A stretch of 64,000 nucleotides of DNA from Moheibacter lacus (lineage in GTDB: Bacteria > Bacteroidota > Bacteroidia > Flavobacteriales > Weeksellaceae). A program made the translations under genes and the position numbers. How positions within the stretch are numbered: the stretch's first letter is position 1; every line of letters begins with the position of its first letter. The DNA is taken from assembly GCF_014042165.1 (NCBI RefSeq), contig NZ_JACDZE010000001.1, positions 1,324,595 to 1,388,594 on the forward strand. The letters are read 5' to 3'. Below the pieces are notes generated by a model, which saw only the letters and a list, made by a program, of their open reading frames with translations, did no database searches and was not told where the DNA came from. Shown piece after piece: positions 10,169-37,660 of this stretch.

Positions 10169-10378
10169 TTTGGAACAATGGCATTTGAAGTTGCCTTGAA
10201 TCAAAAAAGGGTGAATTAGCCCTTGAAAAAAAGAGGATTTAATCCTTCTATTTAGGGTTATAGGGAGTATAATAATGTGTCGGTCATGCTTGAATTTTGT
10301 CTTATCTAATTTGATTTAGAATAAGCGGAAACCGAAAAGCTTTAAACAGAGTAGGTAAAAAATTCAAACTATTAAGTC

Positions 10379-26335: not shown

Positions 26336-26641
26336 ATGGAAAATCAAGACAATATCAGACCGGGTGATGTACAGTCTCCGCCGGACAATAATTTGGTTTG
26401 GGCAATCGTATCAACTATTTTGTGTTGCTGGCCGATCGGTATTTTTGCGATCATAAAATCTACGAGTGTCAACAAACTTTGGGCACAAGGTGATTATGCA
26501 GGGGCACAAAAAGCAGCAGATGATGCAAAGAAATATTCGATTTGGGGAGCAGCAGCTGGTTTAATTTTGGTTGTATTGTACCTTATTTTTGTCGTTGCAT
26601 TAGGCGTTGGTGGAAGTGTTTTAGACGGTTCTGGATATTAA
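26336..26641 (+). CDS. CD225/dispanin-like small membrane protein
   Basis: 101 residues with the CD225 pattern: a first hydrophobic segment NLVWAIVSTILCCWPIGIFAIIKS containing a CC palmitoylation-like pair, a KLWAQGDYAGAQKAADDAKKY loop, and a second hydrophobic segment IWGAAAGLILVVLYLIFVV. Such dispanin-like proteins occur in many bacteria with unknown function. Directly followed (1 base) by the DUF2752 gene, likely co-expressed. Confidence 0.85.
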   Translation: MENQDNIRPGDVQSPPDNNLVWAIVSTILCCWPIGIFAIIKSTSVNKLWAQGDYAGAQKAADDAKKYSIWGAAAGLILVVLYLIFVVALGVGGSVLDGSGY

Positions 26642-27108: not shown

Positions 27109-27597
27109 TTAATTTCTTCTTTCGTAGCGCACAAACGAATAATCAAATTCATTTTTCTCATCCTTTTCAAATCTTTCTCTCGAAACTTCCTTCCAAATCT
27201 TTTCATCGATTTCAGGAAATCTTGTGTCGCCTTCAAATTCCTGATGAACTTCTGTAATTTCAAGAAAATCAGCGAATTTCATCGATTGTTTATAAATGTT
27301 TCCACCACCAAGGATAAAGATTTCATCGTCAAATTCTTTTGCTTTTTTGATGGCTTCTTCTAAAGAATTCGAAGTAAAAACACCTACTTCTTTCCATTCC
27401 TCGTTTCTGGTAATCACGATATTGGTTCTATTTGGAAGCGGTTTTCCAATCGATTCATAGGTTTTTCTTCCCATCAAAATCGGATGTCCGGAAGTGAGCG
27501 ATTTGAACCGTTTTAAATCGGATGACAAATGCCAAATCAATTGATTTTCATTTCCGATGACGTTATTCTCTGCTTTGGCGACGATAATGGTAATCAC
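27109..27597 (-). CDS. folA: Dihydrofolate reductase
   Basis: Reduces dihydrofolate to tetrahydrofolate. 162 residues. Conserved ITIIVAKAENNVIGNENQLIWHLSSDLKRF, catalytic acid in the Trp-His-Leu-Ser-Ser-Asp region, GHPILMGRKTYESIGKPLPNRTNIVITR and IFILGGGNIYKQ. The start is taken as GTG at 27597, directly before the conserved first strand; the alternative TTG at 27630 lies inside a palindrome. Separated from thyA by two genes on the same strand; pairing of folA with thyA is common. Confidence 0.94.
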   Translation of the reverse strand: MITIIVAKAENNVIGNENQLIWHLSSDLKRFKSLTSGHPILMGRKTYESIGKPLPNRTNIVITRNEEWKEVGVFTSNSLEEAIKKAKEFDDEIFILGGGNIYKQSMKFADFLEITEVHQEFEGDTRFPEIDEKIWKEVSRERFEKDEKNEFDYSFVRYERRN

Positions 27598-27619
27598 GAA
27601 TTTTAATATTTGAAAGTGA

Positions 27620-27640
27620 AGCCCCTCCAAAGGAGAGGCT
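27620..27640. repeat. Palindrome AGCCCCTCC-AAA-GGAGAGGCT between pepN-like gene and folA
   Basis: Near-perfect inverted repeat (one mismatch) without a T run on the coding side; it could weaken read-through from the aminopeptidase gene into folA or be a short dispersed element. Confidence 0.45.
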
Positions 27641-27648
27641 TGAAAAGT

Positions 27649-30189
27649 TTATTTTAATGCATCTTTTGTGTCGGTCAACAATTGGATTTGCTCTTCCAAA
27701 CCTTTTGATGGCGCAGTTTGATTGGCTTTGACTTTGAGTGAAATAGCTTGGTCCAATAAATTTCTGAACATCATCCCCAAACTTGGATTTTCTTTTCCAT
27801 AATATTTATAAACCTGTTTGTAAAGCGAAGCTACTTTTTGTGTTGATTTCATATCGTCAGAACCCAAAACCCAAGCAAATCCAGGTTCCAATTTCGTGCC
27901 CAACGCTGGATCTTCATATTTCGTAAACAAATAAAAGGCAACGGATTCTGCCGCAACATTTAATTTGGAAGTATCATTGTTGGCCATCCAAATCGGTAAA
28001 AGTTCTGCAATCAATTCAGGATTGGTCGCCAAAACTTCATCTGAAAGTTTGGCCAATTCTTGCGTTTTTGTTGGGTCTAAACGTAAAACTCCAGATGCTG
28101 AAGCAGCTTGAACACTGAAAGATTGGCTTTTTAGTCCATTTTGGAAAACACCTAAATCCGATTCACCCATTTCGTTTAATTTGTTCAAAGCAGCTGCCTG
28201 CACTTTGGTTTTCGGATCAGCATTTGCCAATTTTTTTAAGATTGAATTCGCTTTGCTTTTCACTTTCGCATCTTTACCATCCAATTTGTTGATCGCAAAA
28301 ATCCGAATGCCTTCATAAGAATCATTCAATGCTGAAACCAAAGTGTTCAATGCAGTTTCATTGGTTGCTTGTGCATTTGCCAAGTTCTCCAATGCCAAAA
28401 GTCTTGAGGTAAATTCATCTTTTGCAACTTTATATTGAGCGGCAAAAGCTTCAGTCGATTTGGTTTCCTTGATATCGCACAGAATGTCTTGGTTAGCATT
28501 TGGAATCACAACGTCCGGTGATTTGGAAGCATCAAATTCAAAACTATTTTCTTTCTTTTTGGCTACCCAAACGTTTTGACGACTTGCTTTTCCGTCAATC
28601 ACAACATCGATTGCAAATGGGAATTCAAATAATTTGGATTGAGTTTGAACGAGCGTAACTTTTACCTTTTTGGTCGAAGCATTATAATCATAGGCAATGT
28701 TCAACTGCGGATGCCCGTTTCCGAAATACCATTGGTCAAAAAACCAATTCAAATCACGTCCACTCACAGCTTCCATCGCCAATCGGATTTGGACTGCTTC
28801 TGCTGTTCCGTATTCGTAATCATGTAAATATTTGCTCAATCCACCAAAAAATGCTTCGTCACCCAAATAACTTCTCAACATATGCAAAACGCCCTTTCCA
28901 CCTTTGTTGTATGAAACGCCATCAAACATATCTTCTCTGGCTTCATAATGTACACGAACTAAATTTTTGTTGAAATTATTGGGATCCATTTTATAGCCTT
29001 GAAGGTCATCATATCGATCTTCTTCGGCTTTGTCTTTTCCGAATTTATGTTCAAACCAAAGGTATTCGGAGTAATTGGCAAGTGATTCATTTACAGTCAA
29101 ATTTCCCCAACTTTCGGTCGTCACCAAATCTCCAAACCAATGGTGAAACAATTCGTGTGCAATGGTTCCTTCCCAAGTATTTTCATCGATGAGTTGTCCG
29201 GGTTTTTGTTGAACCCCTTCTGCAAAAATCACGGCAGTAGTGTTTTCCATCGCACCACTCACATAGTCTCTGGCAGAAATTTGATGGTATTTGTTCCATG
29301 GAAATTCATATTTCAACAAATCTGAAAAGAAACCGATCATTTCTGGCGTATTCCCAAAAATTTGTTTGGCATAAGGTTCATATTCGTGTTCTACATAATA
29401 ATTTACTTCCAAATTTTTCCATTTGTCTTTTACGATCGCATAATCACCAATTCCTACAAAAAACAAATATGGCGCATGTTTTTGTTTGAAATTCCAATAG
29501 TCGGTTCTCGTTCCGTCGGAATTTTTGGTTTGTTTTTCCAATTTCCCGTTGGAAAGCGTGATGTATTTATCTGGAACGGTCAGGTACATTTCCTGCGAAG
29601 TTTTCTGGTTGGGTTTGTCTATGGTCGGAAACCAACAAGAAGAAGATTCGGTTTCGCCTTGTGTCCAAACTTGAGTTGGTTTGTCCGGATCGGTTCCTTG
29701 CGCATTGATGAAATACATTCCTTTTGCATCGGTAATCGCCGCACTTCCGGCTTGTTTCACTTCATTGGGACGAGCGGTATATTTGATGTAAAGGGTATAT
29801 TCTTCGTTTCTTTTGTAGGTTTTATCGAGGTCGATGAATAGTTGTTGATCGTCGTTGGTAAATTTTAATTTGGATTTTGCATTTCCTTTTACCAATTCCA
29901 CGTCGTGAATCAACATTGCTTTCGCGTCCAAAGTCAATTTATTGGTTGAATAAAAATGTGGTTTTAAGGTAATCCAGGCTTCGCCGTTTACTTGCTCTTT
30001 TTCCCAGTCAAATTTCAAATCCAATTTGGTGTGAACCAAATCATGAATTTTTTCCGCTTCCGCCCGGTAGACTTCCGATTTGTTGGATTGATTTTCTTTG
30101 TAACTCGGTGGCAAAGCGTCTTTGACTTGCGCTAATGAAATAGTTGAAATAAAAAGAAGGGAGGCAAGGCCGAATAATTGGTTTTTCAT
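27649..30189 (-). CDS. M1 family zinc aminopeptidase, exported
   Basis: 846-residue metallopeptidase (gluzincin). Signal peptide about 1-20 (TISLAQ). Exopeptidase motif GAMEN at 312-316; zinc site HELFH at 345-349 with the third ligand Glu368 in NESLANY. A HEAT-like C-terminal half (about 590-846) follows. Predicted periplasmic or surface cleavage of N-terminal residues from peptides. Same strand as folA (downstream, 19-bp gap after its palindrome). Confidence 0.92.
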   Translation of the reverse strand: MKNQLFGLASLLFISTISLAQVKDALPPSYKENQSNKSEVYRAEAEKIHDLVHTKLDLKFDWEKEQVNGEAWITLKPHFYSTNKLTLDAKAMLIHDVELVKGNAKSKLKFTNDDQQLFIDLDKTYKRNEEYTLYIKYTARPNEVKQAGSAAITDAKGMYFINAQGTDPDKPTQVWTQGETESSSCWFPTIDKPNQKTSQEMYLTVPDKYITLSNGKLEKQTKNSDGTRTDYWNFKQKHAPYLFFVGIGDYAIVKDKWKNLEVNYYVEHEYEPYAKQIFGNTPEMIGFFSDLLKYEFPWNKYHQISARDYVSGAMENTTAVIFAEGVQQKPGQLIDENTWEGTIAHELFHHWFGDLVTTESWGNLTVNESLANYSEYLWFEHKFGKDKAEEDRYDDLQGYKMDPNNFNKNLVRVHYEAREDMFDGVSYNKGGKGVLHMLRSYLGDEAFFGGLSKYLHDYEYGTAEAVQIRLAMEAVSGRDLNWFFDQWYFGNGHPQLNIAYDYNASTKKVKVTLVQTQSKLFEFPFAIDVVIDGKASRQNVWVAKKKENSFEFDASKSPDVVIPNANQDILCDIKETKSTEAFAAQYKVAKDEFTSRLLALENLANAQATNETALNTLVSALNDSYEGIRIFAINKLDGKDAKVKSKANSILKKLANADPKTKVQAAALNKLNEMGESDLGVFQNGLKSQSFSVQAASASGVLRLDPTKTQELAKLSDEVLATNPELIAELLPIWMANNDTSKLNVAAESVAFYLFTKYEDPALGTKLEPGFAWVLGSDDMKSTQKVASLYKQVYKYYGKENPSLGMMFRNLLDQAISLKVKANQTAPSKGLEEQIQLLTDTKDALK

Positions 30190-30275: not shown

Positions 30276-30304
30276 CCTTGTCAAGGTTTGGAACCTTGAC
30301 AAGG
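30276..30304 (-). terminator. REP-like hairpin at the 3' end of the metallo-beta-lactamase gene
   Basis: Perfect 13-bp stem CCTTGTCAAGGTT / AACCTTGACAAGG with loop TGG, starting one base after the lactamase stop. No clear T run on the minus strand, so it may protect mRNA or terminate weakly. Same AACCTTG layout family as hairpins at 24186 and 36298. Confidence 0.6.
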
Positions 30305-30305
30305 C

Positions 30306-31043
30306 TTATTGAAACAATTGAATTGTATAATCCAACAATTCCATTCCGCCGCGTTTTCCGTGTCCGGGAATGACGATTTTCAGATTGGGGTATTTGACCT
30401 TGATTTTTTGAACGGTTTCGGACCAAGCATTTTCATTGGCATCGCCGAGATAGCCTTTGGTGGCGTTCATTTCTTTTATCAAACATCCGCCAAACAAAAC
30501 TTCCTCTTCCGGAAAATAAACCACAATGTTGTCTCGCGTATGACCTTCGCCGAAATAATTCAGATATACTTTTTTATTGCCGACTTTTAGCGTGAATTCT
30601 TTGTCAATGCCATTTTGAGGAATGTTTTTAGTTTCGTTTTTCAACAAATCAATCGTCATTTTGTTGGCATAAGACGGAACACCGATTTTATGAAATTCGT
30701 CCAATCCGCCGATGCAATCTTCATGGAAATGTGTCGCAGTCACAGATTTGATTTTGAAATTTAGAGCTTGCAAAAATTCAATCAATTCTTTGGAACTTTC
30801 TCTATCCGTCGGCGTATCGAAAACCGCCGCTTCGCCATTGTCCACGACAATCATTCCGTTGCAAGGAACTTTACCAAAATCATCGGTTTGCAAATAGGAA
30901 ATGTGCTGGTAAACGTTTTCTGAAAGTTTGATGACGGTTAAATTTTTAGATTCATAAATCGTGTATTGTTTTGTGCTGGGTTGAATTTGTTTGGTGCAAG
31001 AAAAAATAGTAATCAGCAATAATATGAGTGAAATTGGTTTCAT
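30306..31043 (-). CDS. bla: Subclass B1 metallo-beta-lactamase, predicted lipoprotein
   Basis: 245-residue zinc hydrolase of the metallo-beta-lactamase fold with the complete B1 ligand set: His105, His107 and Asp109 in THFHEDCIGG, His168 in GEGHTRDN, Cys187 in GGCLIK and His228 in PGHGK. Lys190 and the GYLGDANENAW segment (B1 substrate-binding Lys and Asn) are present. The leader MKPISLILLLITIFSCTK carries a lipobox with Cys16, so membrane anchoring is predicted, as known for NDM-1. Expected to hydrolyse carbapenems and other beta-lactams; no expression data. No mobile element around it, so it looks chromosomal and intrinsic. Confidence 0.9.
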   Translation of the reverse strand: MKPISLILLLITIFSCTKQIQPSTKQYTIYESKNLTVIKLSENVYQHISYLQTDDFGKVPCNGMIVVDNGEAAVFDTPTDRESSKELIEFLQALNFKIKSVTATHFHEDCIGGLDEFHKIGVPSYANKMTIDLLKNETKNIPQNGIDKEFTLKVGNKKVYLNYFGEGHTRDNIVVYFPEEEVLFGGCLIKEMNATKGYLGDANENAWSETVQKIKVKYPNLKIVIPGHGKRGGMELLDYTIQLFQ

Positions 31044-31079: not shown

Positions 31080-31874
31080 CTAAACCGCCACTTCTCCTTT
31101 GATATGCGGATGTGGATCATAGTCTTCTAACGTAAAATCTTCAAATTTAAAACTGAAAATATCCTTTACTTCCGGATTGATTTTCATCGTCGGTAATTTC
31201 CTTGGTTCGCGAGTCAACTGCAGATTAATCTGATCGAAGTGATTCGAATAAATATGCGCATCGCCAAACGTATGCACAAAATCACCTTCTTGTAAACCAC
31301 AAACCTGCGCCATCATTTTCAGCAAAAGCGCATAGGAAGCGATGTTGAACGGAACGCCGAGAAAGATGTCCGCACTTCGTTGGTACAATTGCAAAGACAA
31401 TTTTCCATCGGCTACATAAAATTGGAAAAAAGCATGACAAGGCGCCAAAGCCATTTGGTCGAGTTCACCTACATTCCAGGCTGAAACAATTATACGCCTT
31501 GAATCGGGGTTGCTTTTGATTTGTTCAACGGCTTGTTTGATTTGGTCAATGGTTTCGCCGTTTGGTTTCCCCCAGCTGCGCCATTGGTGCCCGTAAACCG
31601 GTCCGAGATTTCCGTTTTCATCGGCCCATTCGTTCCAAATGCGCACACCGTTTTCTTGCAAATATTGGACATTTGTATCGCCATTTAAAAACCAAAGCAA
31701 TTCGTGAACGATGGATTTCAAATGCAATTTTTTGGTCGTCACCATCGGAAATCCTTCCTGCATATCGAAACGCATTTGGTATCCGAAAACACTCTTGGTT
31801 CCCGTTCCGGTGCGGTCTTCCTTAAAACTTCCGTGATCCATCACGTGACGACATAAATCCAAATATTGCTGCAT
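31080..31874 (-). CDS. thyA: Thymidylate synthase
   Basis: Methylates dUMP to dTMP using methylene-tetrahydrofolate. 264 residues, same as E. coli. The catalytic Cys146 lies in [13 protein letters not shown]; the dUMP-binding Arg in [33 protein letters not shown] and [11 protein letters not shown] complete the signature. Located at the start of a minus-strand run thyA, lactamase, aminopeptidase, folA; consumption of folate by ThyA is balanced by FolA. Confidence 0.97.
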
Positions 31875-33373: not shown

Positions 33374-33763
33374 GTGAAAAAATCATTTCAGATACTCACT
33401 ATTTTGTTGGCGATGCTCGTTTTTCTGTCGCCGATGCTTTCATTTGCATCGGTTTTGACTGTGGAAGAGCATCCGTCTGAAATGAGTTGCTGTATGGTGG
33501 ACGATTCAAAAAACAGTGAACAGGATTGTTGTCATGCTGATCAACCCATTTCTACAAAAAATAAATGCGGTGACAATGGTTGTCCTTCTAATGATTGTCA
33601 TTTTCATCAGGTAACGGTTTTTCATATTTATTTCCCTGATAATTTAGAGGAAAAAGAATCTCATTTAATTTCTTCCGAAAAATTAAAATCTGAAAACAAT
33701 AAATCTTTGTTGATTGAAGATTTAAGTTATTCTTTTTGGAATCCTCCGAAATACATTTCTTGA
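33374..33763 (+). CDS. Small exported Cys/His-rich protein (HYC_CC_PP-like)
   Basis: 129-residue protein with an N-terminal signal peptide (about 1-25, LLAMLVFLSPMLSFAS) followed by cysteine clusters SCCMVDD, DCCHADQ, CGDNGCPSNDCHFHQ and a C-terminal WNPPKY. This pattern resembles a Bacteroidota family named for its HYC, CC and PP motifs, which is found beside metal-type TonB receptors. It is followed 78 bases later by the HMA-TonB receptor, so a role in periplasmic metal (probably copper) handling is inferred. GTG start. Confidence 0.65.
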   Translation: MKKSFQILTILLAMLVFLSPMLSFASVLTVEEHPSEMSCCMVDDSKNSEQDCCHADQPISTKNKCGDNGCPSNDCHFHQVTVFHIYFPDNLEEKESHLISSEKLKSENNKSLLIEDLSYSFWNPPKYIS

Positions 33764-33841: not shown

Positions 33842-36274
33842 ATGTATAAATTCAAAATATTTACATTCTTGTTGCTTTTGGGAATCAGTCTTTCAGCACA
33901 AGAAATAACAGAAGAAATCAAAGTCAGAGGGAATTGTGGGATGTGTAAAGACCGGATAGAGTCTACGGTGAACACTTTTCCATCTGCAAATGGAAGTTGG
34001 AATATCAATTCTAAAATCTTAACGTTAAGTTTTGATCCAAAGAAAACTTCTAAAGACCAAATCATGAAAAAAGTGGCGGAAGTAGGGCACGATAATGAAC
34101 TGTATTTGGCAGATGATAAGGTTTATCAATCGCTTCCGGGATGTTGTCAATTTGACAGAGAAATCTCTTGGGATCAAGTCGCAAACAGTGAAGGGACTCA
34201 TGGAGGAGAAGAAGTAGTAGTAGAGGAAACGGTAGATGAACACGGACATGTTCATGATGGAGAAACTCAAGCGCATGAAACAACCGAAGATTTGACACAA
34301 GAAGAGGATTGGTCAGACGAAGCGGTAGACTTAACAGCCTTAACCATCACGGGAAGCAAAGCGGCGCATGCTTTTGATAAAAATGCAGCCGGATTGGTGG
34401 AGAACATCAGTGATCAAGAATTGTTGAAGGCCGCTTGTTGTAATTTGTCTGAGAGTTTTGAAACCAACGCTACGGTGGATGTTTCTTATGCCAATGCCGT
34501 TTCCGGCACCAAACAATTGAAAATGCTCGGTCTGGATCAGAAATATATATTGCTGACCAAAGAACTTCTGCCAGAAATCAGAGGGATTTCTTCGGCTTAT
34601 GGGATGAATTTCATTCCCGGAAGATGGATCCAGGGCATCCAGTTGGCAAAAGGTGGAGGTTCAGTTACGAACGGTTATGAAGCCATCGCCGGACATATCA
34701 ATACCGAATTGTACAAATCACACGATAAAGCCAAAACTTCTTTGAATTTCTTTGGTGATATCAATACGCGATTTGAAGGGAATTTCGTTCATAATGATGC
34801 CATAACAGATAAATGGACGCAGTCTATTTTGTTGCACGGAAATGCTACGACCAGTCGCCAAGATCATAATGATGATGGATTTATGGATCAACCGATCGGG
34901 CGAAACATCAATGTTGCTTATTTGTTGAATTTTGCCGATTTGGAAAATTCGGGATTCATGACGCATTTCGGAGTGAATTATGTGAATGACCATCGTTTGG
35001 GCGGTCAAACGCATTTCCGAGAGGATTCCGATAAAGGAACGACCAATGCGTATGGAATTGGGCTCGATATCCAAAGATTTCAAGTTTGGAATAAAACGGG
35101 TTATATTTTTCCCGGAAAACCGTATCAAAGCATCGGTTGGATGAACCAATTCAATTACAATGAACAGAAAAGTTATTTCGGATTGAGAACTTATGATGCC
35201 GAACAGCGAACTTATTATTCGAATTTAATTTTTGAAAGCATTTTAGGCAATACCGCTCATAAATACAAAGCAGGATTGAGTTTTTTATTTGATCACTATG
35301 ATGAAATTTATAACCTAATGAATTTCAAACGCGATGAAACCGTTCCGGGAGCATTTGCCGAATATACCTATTCGGGTGATAAACTAACTGTTGTAGCAGG
35401 AGCGAGATTGGATATGCATAATTTGGCAGGAACTCAGTTTACGCCGAGATTGAATGTGAAATATGACATCGCACCGAAAACCATTTTGCGCGCTTCGGCA
35501 GGAAAAGGATTTAGGACAGCCAATGTTTTTGCGGAAAGCCAAGCTTATTTGGCTTCCAATCGTATGATTGAAATTATTCCAAATGAAAACGGTGAAATCT
35601 ATGGTTTGGAGCCGGAAATTGCATGGAATTATGGTGTCAGTTTGCAACAAGAATTCAAATTATTTGGAAGAAAAAGTACGGTTGTAGCAGATTTGTTCCG
35701 AACAGATTTTGAGAATCAAGTCGTGTTGGATTTGGACAATTCTCCTCAAACTTTGTTGTTCTATAATTTAGACGGTAAATCTTATGCCAATAGTTTGCAG
35801 ATCCAATGGGATTTCGAGCCGGTTAGACGTTTAGAAGCCCGATTGGCGTATAAATATTATGATACAAAATCTGATTATTTATCCGGAGAAAAAGAATTGC
35901 CTTTTACACCGAAACACAGAGGATTTGTCAATTTAGCATACGGAACCATGAAGAAATTTAATGGTGCGCAATGGAATTTTGATACGACTTTACAATGGGT
36001 AGGTGAGCAGCGTATTCCTTCCACAGCTAGCAATCCGGTGGAATTTCAAAAACCGGAATATGGTGAATCTTACTTTTTGTTGAATGCGCAGATTTCGAGA
36101 AATTTCAACAAAGTATTGCGCGTTTATGTCGGTGCGGAAAATTTGTTGAGCTATACACAAGATGATGCGATAATCGACGCGGAAAATCCATTTGGAAATT
36201 ATTTTGATGGCGGAATGGTCTATGCGCCTGTAATGCCTGCGAATTTCTACATCGGAATCGATATTGATTTTTAA
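33842..36274 (+). CDS. TonB-dependent receptor with N-terminal heavy-metal-associated domain
   Basis: 810-residue outer-membrane receptor. Signal peptide about 1-20 (LSAQ). Residues about 22-92 are a heavy-metal-associated domain: EEIKVRGNCGMCKDRIESTV with the metal-binding CxxC (Cys32, Cys35), plus a CC pair (LPGCCQFD). A His/Glu-rich linker follows (about 115-145, with EHGHVHDGETQAHE). The plug domain (about 160-300) precedes a 22-strand-type barrel ending VMPANFYIGIDIDF. Likely imports a metal or metal chelate, copper or a similar ion being an inference. The preceding Cys-rich gene probably belongs to the same locus. Confidence 0.9.
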   Translation: MYKFKIFTFLLLLGISLSAQEITEEIKVRGNCGMCKDRIESTVNTFPSANGSWNINSKILTLSFDPKKTSKDQIMKKVAEVGHDNELYLADDKVYQSLPGCCQFDREISWDQVANSEGTHGGEEVVVEETVDEHGHVHDGETQAHETTEDLTQEEDWSDEAVDLTALTITGSKAAHAFDKNAAGLVENISDQELLKAACCNLSESFETNATVDVSYANAVSGTKQLKMLGLDQKYILLTKELLPEIRGISSAYGMNFIPGRWIQGIQLAKGGGSVTNGYEAIAGHINTELYKSHDKAKTSLNFFGDINTRFEGNFVHNDAITDKWTQSILLHGNATTSRQDHNDDGFMDQPIGRNINVAYLLNFADLENSGFMTHFGVNYVNDHRLGGQTHFREDSDKGTTNAYGIGLDIQRFQVWNKTGYIFPGKPYQSIGWMNQFNYNEQKSYFGLRTYDAEQRTYYSNLIFESILGNTAHKYKAGLSFLFDHYDEIYNLMNFKRDETVPGAFAEYTYSGDKLTVVAGARLDMHNLAGTQFTPRLNVKYDIAPKTILRASAGKGFRTANVFAESQAYLASNRMIEIIPNENGEIYGLEPEIAWNYGVSLQQEFKLFGRKSTVVADLFRTDFENQVVLDLDNSPQTLLFYNLDGKSYANSLQIQWDFEPVRRLEARLAYKYYDTKSDYLSGEKELPFTPKHRGFVNLAYGTMKKFNGAQWNFDTTLQWVGEQRIPSTASNPVEFQKPEYGESYFLLNAQISRNFNKVLRVYVGAENLLSYTQDDAIIDAENPFGNYFDGGMVYAPVMPANFYIGIDIDF

Positions 36275-36684: not shown

Positions 36685-37122
36685 TTAAATTTCCTTTGTT
36701 TTCTGTTGATGGTAAAAAAAAGCCGGAATCAAAAGCAGAAGCAGAACCGGTTGAATCAGAAATCTTCTGACATAAAACCCATAATTTACACCTAAACTAA
36801 ATTGGGTTTCAAGGAAAAATAGATACAATGGAAGAAAGATGATCAGAAATCCTACGCCAATAAGGATCGTATATTTTACATAATCTTTGCGCCAAAAAAT
36901 CAAACCTACGATCCATACGGAAAGCAAAAGATTTAGAAAATAACGAAAAAGATGGTTTAAAATCAATTTTCCTAAATCGTAATCTGGAAATTTTCCGGAA
37001 TAGAAATCAGTTTTAAAATAAAGAAGAAAAGGATCATAAAACAATTCCGTCTCATATTTCCGAACCAAAATTAATCCGAAAATGAGTACAGCAGCCAGAA
37101 AATACCTAAGCCATTTGTTCAT
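36685..37122 (-). CDS. Exosortase F system-associated membrane protein
   Basis: 145-residue membrane protein with about four hydrophobic segments (RYFLAAVLIFGLILV, then YFLNLLLSVWIVGLIF, IGVGFLIIFLPLYLF, PVLLLLLIPAFFY) and a conserved KYETELFYDPFLLYFK N-terminal loop. It overlaps the xrtF gene by 17 bases in the same direction, the arrangement known for the XrtF-associated protein of Flavobacteriia. Exact role unknown; probably part of processing or anchoring of a XrtF substrate. Confidence 0.85.
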   Translation of the reverse strand: MNKWLRYFLAAVLIFGLILVRKYETELFYDPFLLYFKTDFYSGKFPDYDLGKLILNHLFRYFLNLLLSVWIVGLIFWRKDYVKYTILIGVGFLIIFLPLYLFFLETQFSLGVNYGFYVRRFLIQPVLLLLLIPAFFYHQQKTKEI

Positions 37123-37660
37123 CTGAATTTTGAATTGGTTTTTTCAATGCAAAGTATTTCACCCAAATGATCCAAAGCAAAACGATCGTTCCGTATAAAA
37201 TTGCCGGAAATAGATAGTCATGCGCCATTTTTCCGTATTCGTGGTGATAAGCAAATATATAATTGAGCAAGACGATTCTGGCGACATTCATGATTTGGAT
37301 GATGATGAGTCCACCCAAAATGTACAAAATGGTTTGTTTCCATGTGGTTGAAAAAGCAACAATAAAAGCAACGAAAATCAACATGATCGAAATGGCATTA
37401 CAGCCTTCGTTGATGTAAGATGGCCATTTTTCATTGACCCCAATCCAAATCCAAGGACGTGTTTTATCAACCAGTTGTCTGGATTCAATTCCGAGCGAAT
37501 TGAGTGATGAAACCGTGCAATCTGCAATGAATCCGCTGTATGGATCCGGTTTGTTTTCACTGTGGTATTGATCGAGATAAAGATTGTAAAGAATTAAAAG
37601 TATTCCCCAAACGACTATGAATTTCAAAACAAAAATCAAAATGGGTTTAAAATCTTTCAT
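37106..37660 (-). CDS. xrtF: Exosortase family protein XrtF
   Basis: 184-residue membrane transpeptidase-like protein. Membrane segments at about 8-28, 88-105, 110-135 and 153-172. The putative catalytic residues of exosortases are present: Cys87 in EGCNAISIML, Arg128 in MNVARIVLL and His147 in KMAHDYLFP. Exosortases process proteins with C-terminal sorting tails, but no XrtF cargo protein is recognisable in this window. First gene of a two-gene operon with its partner protein; the pair is a flavobacterial hallmark. Confidence 0.92.
   Translation of the reverse strand: MKDFKPILIFVLKFIVVWGILLILYNLYLDQYHSENKPDPYSGFIADCTVSSLNSLGIESRQLVDKTRPWIWIGVNEKWPSYINEGCNAISIMLIFVAFIVAFSTTWKQTILYILGGLIIIQIMNVARIVLLNYIFAYHHEYGKMAHDYLFPAILYGTIVLLWIIWVKYFALKKPIQNSDEQMA

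Follow-up and report, generated by a model that had tools for sequence, protein, structure and literature searches.

A chromosomal subclass B1 metallo-beta-lactamase of the CIM-1/CHM-1/MYO-1 group, probably a membrane-anchored lipoprotein, in Moheibacter lacus

Background

The CIM-1/CHM-1/MYO-1 group of subclass B1 metallo-beta-lactamases has already been described with respect to anchoring in the membrane, crystal structure and carbapenemase activity, and MYO-1 was assigned by Berglund et al. to group B1-3, alongside chromosomal genes of the Bacteroidetes (PMC5637372). Lipobox sequences departing from the canonical motif were reported for CIM-1 (FLNC), together with many predicted lipoprotein homologues carrying non-canonical boxes (PMC10920655), and likewise for CJO-1 (LLNC) and CIM-2 (ILSC), both of which, when produced in E. 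coli, were found in the membrane fraction only (PMC12326980). The present work concerns a gene, hereafter bla, located in a stretch of 64,000 nucleotides from Moheibacter lacus (contig NZ_JACDZE010000001.1; the whole stretch is called the window), which lies in a 2.77-Mb assembly of 99.79% completeness. Its product is very probably a functional, chromosomally encoded di-zinc beta-lactamase of subclass B1 which belongs to the CIM-1/CHM-1/MYO-1 group of the Bacteroidota, is lipidated at Cys16 and is anchored in the outer membrane. This reading draws on the sequence family, the zinc ligands, the predicted fold, a signal peptide with its cysteine, the gene order behind thyA in two species and purifying selection. 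The gene is an ordinary one, being a new member of a group whose enzymology, anchoring and environmental spread are already published; none of the papers returned by a search of open-access literature on Moheibacter and lactamases mentions it in the title or the opening of the abstract.

The bla gene and its assignment to subclass B1

30306..31043, minus strand: bla, subclass B1 metallo-beta-lactamase of the CIM/CHM/MYO-1 type, 245 amino acids (NF033088, PDB match, tree, AlphaFold2 model)

The open reading frame (ORF) starts with ATG, encodes 245 amino acids and is intact, no internal stop being present. Its product scores 264.4 bits against the B1 model NF033088 (bla_subclass_B1, cut-off 200) and 47.3 bits against Pfam Lactamase_B (cut-off 22.7), which excludes a chance match and bears out the subclass named in the initial annotation. 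The NCBIfam families ranking highest are blaCIM, blaCHM and blaBMHC (288 bits for the last), with a named-family cut-off being reached in none of the 25 families listed: the protein obtained 334 bits vs 490 for blaCIM (NF041441), 320 vs 475 for blaCHM (NF041758) and 177.7 vs 270 for BlaB/IND/MUS (NF012146). The best sequence match in the PDB is MYO-1 (6t5l, E 2.7e-85). Across the genome the Lactamase_B fold was matched 12 times and the B1 model once at E <= 0.001; a class A beta-lactamase was not found with PF13354, the other serine beta-lactamase classes not having been searched. Comparison with the bla gene of M. sediminis gave 0.13 nonsynonymous (dN) and 1.04 synonymous (dS) substitutions per site (NG86), which identifies bla as being under purifying selection, the dS values of bla and its neighbours being close to saturation.

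In standard class B beta-lactamase (BBL) numbering, taken from the published ligand names (PMC12326980) and from alignment to NDM-1, the zinc ligands H105, H107, D109, H168, C187 and H228 correspond to His116, His118, Asp120, His196, Cys221 and His263.

30714..30731, minus strand: H-F-H-E-D-C motif with BBL His116, His118, Asp120 and the second-shell Cys121 (alignment)
30540..30542, minus strand: zinc ligand His168, BBL His196 (alignment)
30474..30485, minus strand: zinc ligand Cys187 (BBL Cys221) to Lys190 (BBL Lys224) (alignment)
30360..30362, minus strand: zinc ligand His228, BBL His263 (alignment)

The complete ligand set claimed initially is indeed there, and all six residues are identical in 131/131 rows of the alignment (the window protein and 130 others). 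Lys224 is likewise present, as is the second-shell pair Cys69 and Cys121, which is also found in MYO-1 and ECV-1 and occurs in 81/101 rows of the clade described below vs 2/30 rows outside. The residues marking this clade, i.e., Thr61 (96/101), Cys69 (95/101) and Cys121 (87/101), are all found in the window protein. As these features are shared with described members of the group, the active site holds nothing new.

The AlphaFold2 model of the protein has a mean predicted local distance difference test score (pLDDT) of 92.9 and adopts the B1 fold, with Z 33-40 against the B1 crystal structures among the 50 matches listed. Superposition onto the crystal structures of ECV-1, CIM-2, CJO-1 and MYO-1 gave Z 38.0-39.6 and a root mean square deviation of 0.9-1.3 Å over 221-224 residues; the crystal structure of a Dyadobacter enzyme falls within the same range of Z. 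Loop L3 reads SYLQTDDFG and thus has leucine at BBL 59, as MYO-1 and NDM-1 do, where CJO-1 has Lys59. The exchange Lys59Leu in CJO-1 was reported to raise the cefepime minimal inhibitory concentration (MIC) from 0.0625 to 0.5 (PMC12326980), and for MYO-1 a rise from 0.064 to 8 was reported. Because L3 carries Leu59 like MYO-1, not Lys, cefepime hydrolysis is likelier here than in CJO-1 and CIM-2, and the window enzyme may accept cefepime. Combining Leu59 with Tyr233, it provides a natural test of the published idea linking Lys59 to cefepime, whereby its cefepime handling should exceed that of CJO-1. Going by the published relatives, beta-lactam hydrolysis is to be expected, presumably with a substrate range weaker than that of NDM-1.

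Signal peptide and membrane anchoring

30996..31043, minus strand: lipoprotein signal peptide (residues 1-15) and lipobox Cys16, box IFSC (sequence and script rule)

Cys16 follows a hydrophobic stretch. Judged by the script rule, the box IFSC fails the canonical motif [LVI][ASTVI][GAS]C: the cysteine and positions -1 and -3 fit, whereas position -2 is Phe, for which reason the box lies outside the textbook consensus. The lipobox cysteine proposed initially is hence real and the protein a probable lipoprotein, albeit one with a non-canonical box. By a relaxed rule a lipobox cysteine was identified in 72/101 rows of the clade vs 1/30 outside (NDM-1), and the strict consensus in 15/101, these counts being approximate as the starts of the relatives were chosen by script (the Met nearest to 30 residues upstream). 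In 29/101 clade rows no lipobox was recognised, an A-Q type cleavage region taking its place in several of these, so that anchoring is not a fixed property of the clade. This and the departure of IFSC from the consensus would suit the same B1 lactamase being cleaved by signal peptidase I and staying soluble in the periplasm. Such an unlipidated enzyme is improbable, given that Cys16 and the [S/T]KQI following it are kept in 3/3 Moheibacter copies and that the boxes of CJO-1 and CIM-2, found in membranes only, are non-canonical as well. The window enzyme is therefore probably a membrane-anchored lipoprotein, with lipidation at Cys16 expected from what was published for its relatives. The signal for surface export was described as K-(D/E)2 or Q-A-(D/E)2 after the cysteine (PMC5080379); neither is present after Cys16, where the protein reads TKQIQP, and from this we infer an anchor facing the periplasm. 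By analogy with NDM-1, tolerance of zinc scarcity may reasonably be expected.

Placement among the B1 enzymes

A tree was built from 131 B1 proteins, and in it the window gene pairs with its orthologue in M. sediminis (support 100), the two falling into a clade of 101 rows with a Shimodaira-Hasegawa-like approximate likelihood ratio test (SH-aLRT) support of 96. The clade consists nearly exclusively of Bacteroidota and includes MYO-1 and Chryseobacterium rows, while CfiA2 is placed outside and a 14-row branch of IND, BlaB and BlaB/IND/MUS-type rows farther off. This was a quick tree, with MYO-1 as the sole characterised group member present as a named record, and the nearness to CIM and CHM rests on the ranks of the hidden Markov models (HMMs) and on structure matches. 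Membership of the BlaB/IND/EBR branch was ruled out by the tree and the HMM scores, so that BlaB, IND, CGB and EBR, the enzymes initially named for comparison, represent the wrong branch, the gene belonging to the clade of the CIM/CHM/MYO-1 type. The nearest relative is the M. sediminis protein (79%) and the nearest named enzyme the plasmid-borne MYO-1 (56%), with ~46-62% identity to most other Bacteroidota homologues. As sequence identities go, this is the normal spread for the group, and the possible divergence of the gene comes down to just that.

Proposed function and points to be weighed

31080..31874, minus strand: thyA, thymidylate synthase, 36 bases upstream of bla (Pfam PF00303, synteny)

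In the picture suggested here, the protein would be exported by the Sec pathway and lipidated at Cys16, which would tie it to the periplasmic side of the outer membrane. There, penicillins, cephalosporins and carbapenems would have their ring opened by a zinc-bound hydroxide; transcription together with thyA would provide a constant expression level. The mechanism of catalysis given here is the one generally known for B1 enzymes.

Several points weigh against this picture. The lipobox is non-canonical, as set out above; BBL 233 is Tyr and not Asn, although further active members of the group share this residue; in the uncultured Moheibacter genome G002 other genes stand between thyA and bla, from which it follows that the thyA operon is not universal; and the proteins found negative in the Carba NP test by Berglund et al. 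all belong to group B1-3, a result partly ascribed to codon use (PMC5637372). These negatives, together with the modest carbapenem MIC gains reported for relatives in E. coli, would also agree with a hydrolase of B1 fold that acts physiologically mainly on something other than a clinical beta-lactam, e.g., a cell-wall or lactone compound, and has only weak lactamase activity. Little probability is given to this, since all ligands, Lys224 and the L3 and L10 loops match enzymes of measured lactamase activity and rare codons may account for the negatives (PMC5637372). A functional beta-lactamase is hence retained as the preferred reading.

The thyA-pepN interval and expression of bla

27649..30189, minus strand: M1 peptidase gene, here pepN, downstream of bla on the far side of a variable slot (Pfam PF01433)
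27109..27630, minus strand: folA, dihydrofolate reductase, context only (Pfam PF00186)
30276..30304, minus strand: perfect 13-bp inverted repeat, loop of 3 bases, immediately behind the bla stop, probably forming a hairpin at the transcript end (exact repeat and folding)
L121 222-665 (genome G002), minus strand: Kinase-PolyVal domain gene between thyA and bla (206.8 bits)

In both complete Moheibacter copies bla lies directly behind thyA, the third copy (G002) being cut by a contig end. The spacer measures 36 bases in the window and 37 in M. sediminis and is visibly homologous, so that the insertion is most likely older than the split of the two. Lying on the same strand with a gap of 36 bases, bla and thyA are likely co-transcribed, and the inverted repeat is a probable transcript-end hairpin: the 58 nt in which it lies have a folding energy of -22.2 kcal/mol (z -5.8). 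A run of T after the hairpin is missing, and the bla gene of M. sediminis has no such repeat behind it. The palindrome was also considered as a dispersed repeat, which was ruled out as the genome contains a single exact copy.

All five genus genomes that hold thyA and the M1 peptidase gene on one contig (the window genome, G001, G003, G004, taken as M. sediminis, and G005) have these two genes flanking one interval; in G002, which has thyA but not pepN, the contig ends inside bla. The interval contains bla alone in the window, bla plus a gene of 233 aa (N-terminus lipoprotein-like) in M. sediminis, a 155-aa ORF in G001 and an ORF of 167-175 aa on the opposite strand in G003 and G005, while in G002 a 49-aa ORF and the Kinase-PolyVal gene stand between thyA and bla. 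The interval might accordingly be regarded as a gene-exchange slot with repeated gain and loss of cargo, in which bla gained constant expression behind thyA; this scenario, whose cargo would comprise the lipoprotein lactamase, other small genes and a polyvalent-protein kinase-domain gene, is tentative and on balance doubtful.

The folate-metabolism neighbourhood pointed out initially exists insofar as thyA and folA lie nearby. Yet thyA, pepN and folA occur together in 5/5 of these genomes and bla in just 2/5; since the neighbourhood is kept whether or not the lactamase is there, bla is unlikely to be linked to it in function, and a connection to folate metabolism was rejected. Apart from likely read-through from thyA, the neighbourhood carries no functional message.

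Distribution and origin

Among the six genomes of the genus, two have full-length bla, one (G002) is counted as having it on the basis of a fragment of 61 residues where its contig ends, and three have none, their thyA-pepN interval being occupied by other genes. Calling the gene intrinsic is thus justified for the window species and M. sediminis, and not for the genus, given the three genomes without it. A B1 gene above the cut-off was found in 11/59 genomes of the relatives search and in 137/320 genomes of the family (Weeksellaceae), the latter mainly from a single genus, g20. A genus tree, built from two proteins (pepN is missing in G002 and rlmB was unused for G003), pairs G002 with G004 and G003 with G005, and does not settle how the window genome, G001 and the pair G002+G004 branch relative to one another. 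Most simply, bla would have been gained ahead of the divergence of the window genome, G001, G002 and G004, and then lost in G001; separate gains within these four genomes may also have occurred.

That bla is a recently acquired mobile resistance gene, instead of a settled chromosomal one, would go along with its patchy presence in Moheibacter (3/6), with slot contents differing by species up to the polyvalent-protein kinase domain gene in G002, with the plasmid location of MYO-1 next to integrase and IS91 genes, and with a dS of 1.04, which is below that of thyA, pepN and folA (1.72-3.38). A more careful tree of 80 rows further places the Moheibacter pair outside a 29-row clade with Chryseobacterium. 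Joining the pair to this Chryseobacterium-rich clade, however, costs only 2.0 log-likelihood units and is not rejected by the approximately unbiased (AU) test (p-AU 0.46), for which reason acquisition from another family is not shown and kinship with the Weeksellaceae-rich clade is permitted. The gene moreover occupies the same site behind a homologous spacer in two species whose proteins share 79% identity, its guanine-plus-cytosine content (0.378) is close to that of the window (0.373), and a Pfam scan of 27 window proteins (~14.8-43.4 kb, not every ORF being scanned) detected no transposase or integrase domain. Recent acquisition is hence quite unlikely, and the initial description of the gene as chromosomal, with no mobile element seen nearby, stands.

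Other features of the window

36685-37660, minus strand: exosortase family protein XrtF (TIGR04128, 176 bits, cut-off 90), adjoined by an exosortase F system-associated membrane protein (TIGR04127, 128 bits, cut-off 35)
33842-36274, plus strand: TonB-dependent receptor whose N-terminal part contains a heavy-metal-associated-like stretch, GNCGMC, a label that is a motif reading with no HMM match
33374-33763: Cys/His-rich small protein preceding the TonB-dependent receptor
10322-10357, plus strand: DUF805b cis-regulatory RNA motif (48.1 bits vs gathering 35.6)
26336-26641, plus strand: CD225 (interferon-induced transmembrane protein family) domain protein, adjoining a DUF2752 protein

A partial copy of the receptor in G002 (L121 3061-3816) carries the GNCGMC-type stretch twice.

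Comparison with known enzymes

With this gene Moheibacter joins the environmental reservoir of probably membrane-anchored B1 carbapenemases of the Bacteroidota, a group of which MYO-1 is already found on a plasmid. MYO-1 (Myroides odoratimimus, PDB 6T5L) shares 56% identity with the window enzyme over residues 21-245, the residues Leu59, Thr61, Phe64, Cys69, Cys121 and Tyr233 and the fold (Z 38.0), and differs by its location between integrase and IS91 genes and by a longer N-terminus (266 aa). The Chryseobacterium lipoprotein enzymes CIM-1, CIM-2, CJO-1 and CHM-1 have the same ligand set, and an atypical lipobox is common to the window protein, CIM-1, CIM-2 and CJO-1; blaCIM is its best NCBIfam family and the fold matches CJO-1 and CIM-2 with Z 39.2-39.4, whereas the protein stays under the blaCIM and blaCHM cut-offs and has Leu59 in place of the Lys59 of CJO-1. 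ECV-1 (Echinicola vietnamensis, PDB 6T5K) is the top structural match (Z 39.6) and shares the trio Cys69/Cys121/Cys221, but is identical in just 51% of the aligned residues. CfiA/CcrA of Bacteroides fragilis is a B1 enzyme with Cys121 and 38-40% identity which, unlike the window enzyme, lies outside the clade, has Asn233 and shows no lipobox by script. The soluble flavobacterial enzymes BlaB, IND and EBR belong to subclass B1 and to the bacterial order of the window host, whereas the IND, BlaB and BlaB/IND/MUS-type rows checked form a separate branch with 32-36% identity and Arg121. NDM-1, finally, is a lipoprotein B1 enzyme, as the window enzyme is predicted to be, but is distinguished from it by an identity of 32%, by Lys121 and Asn233 and by a canonical lipobox.
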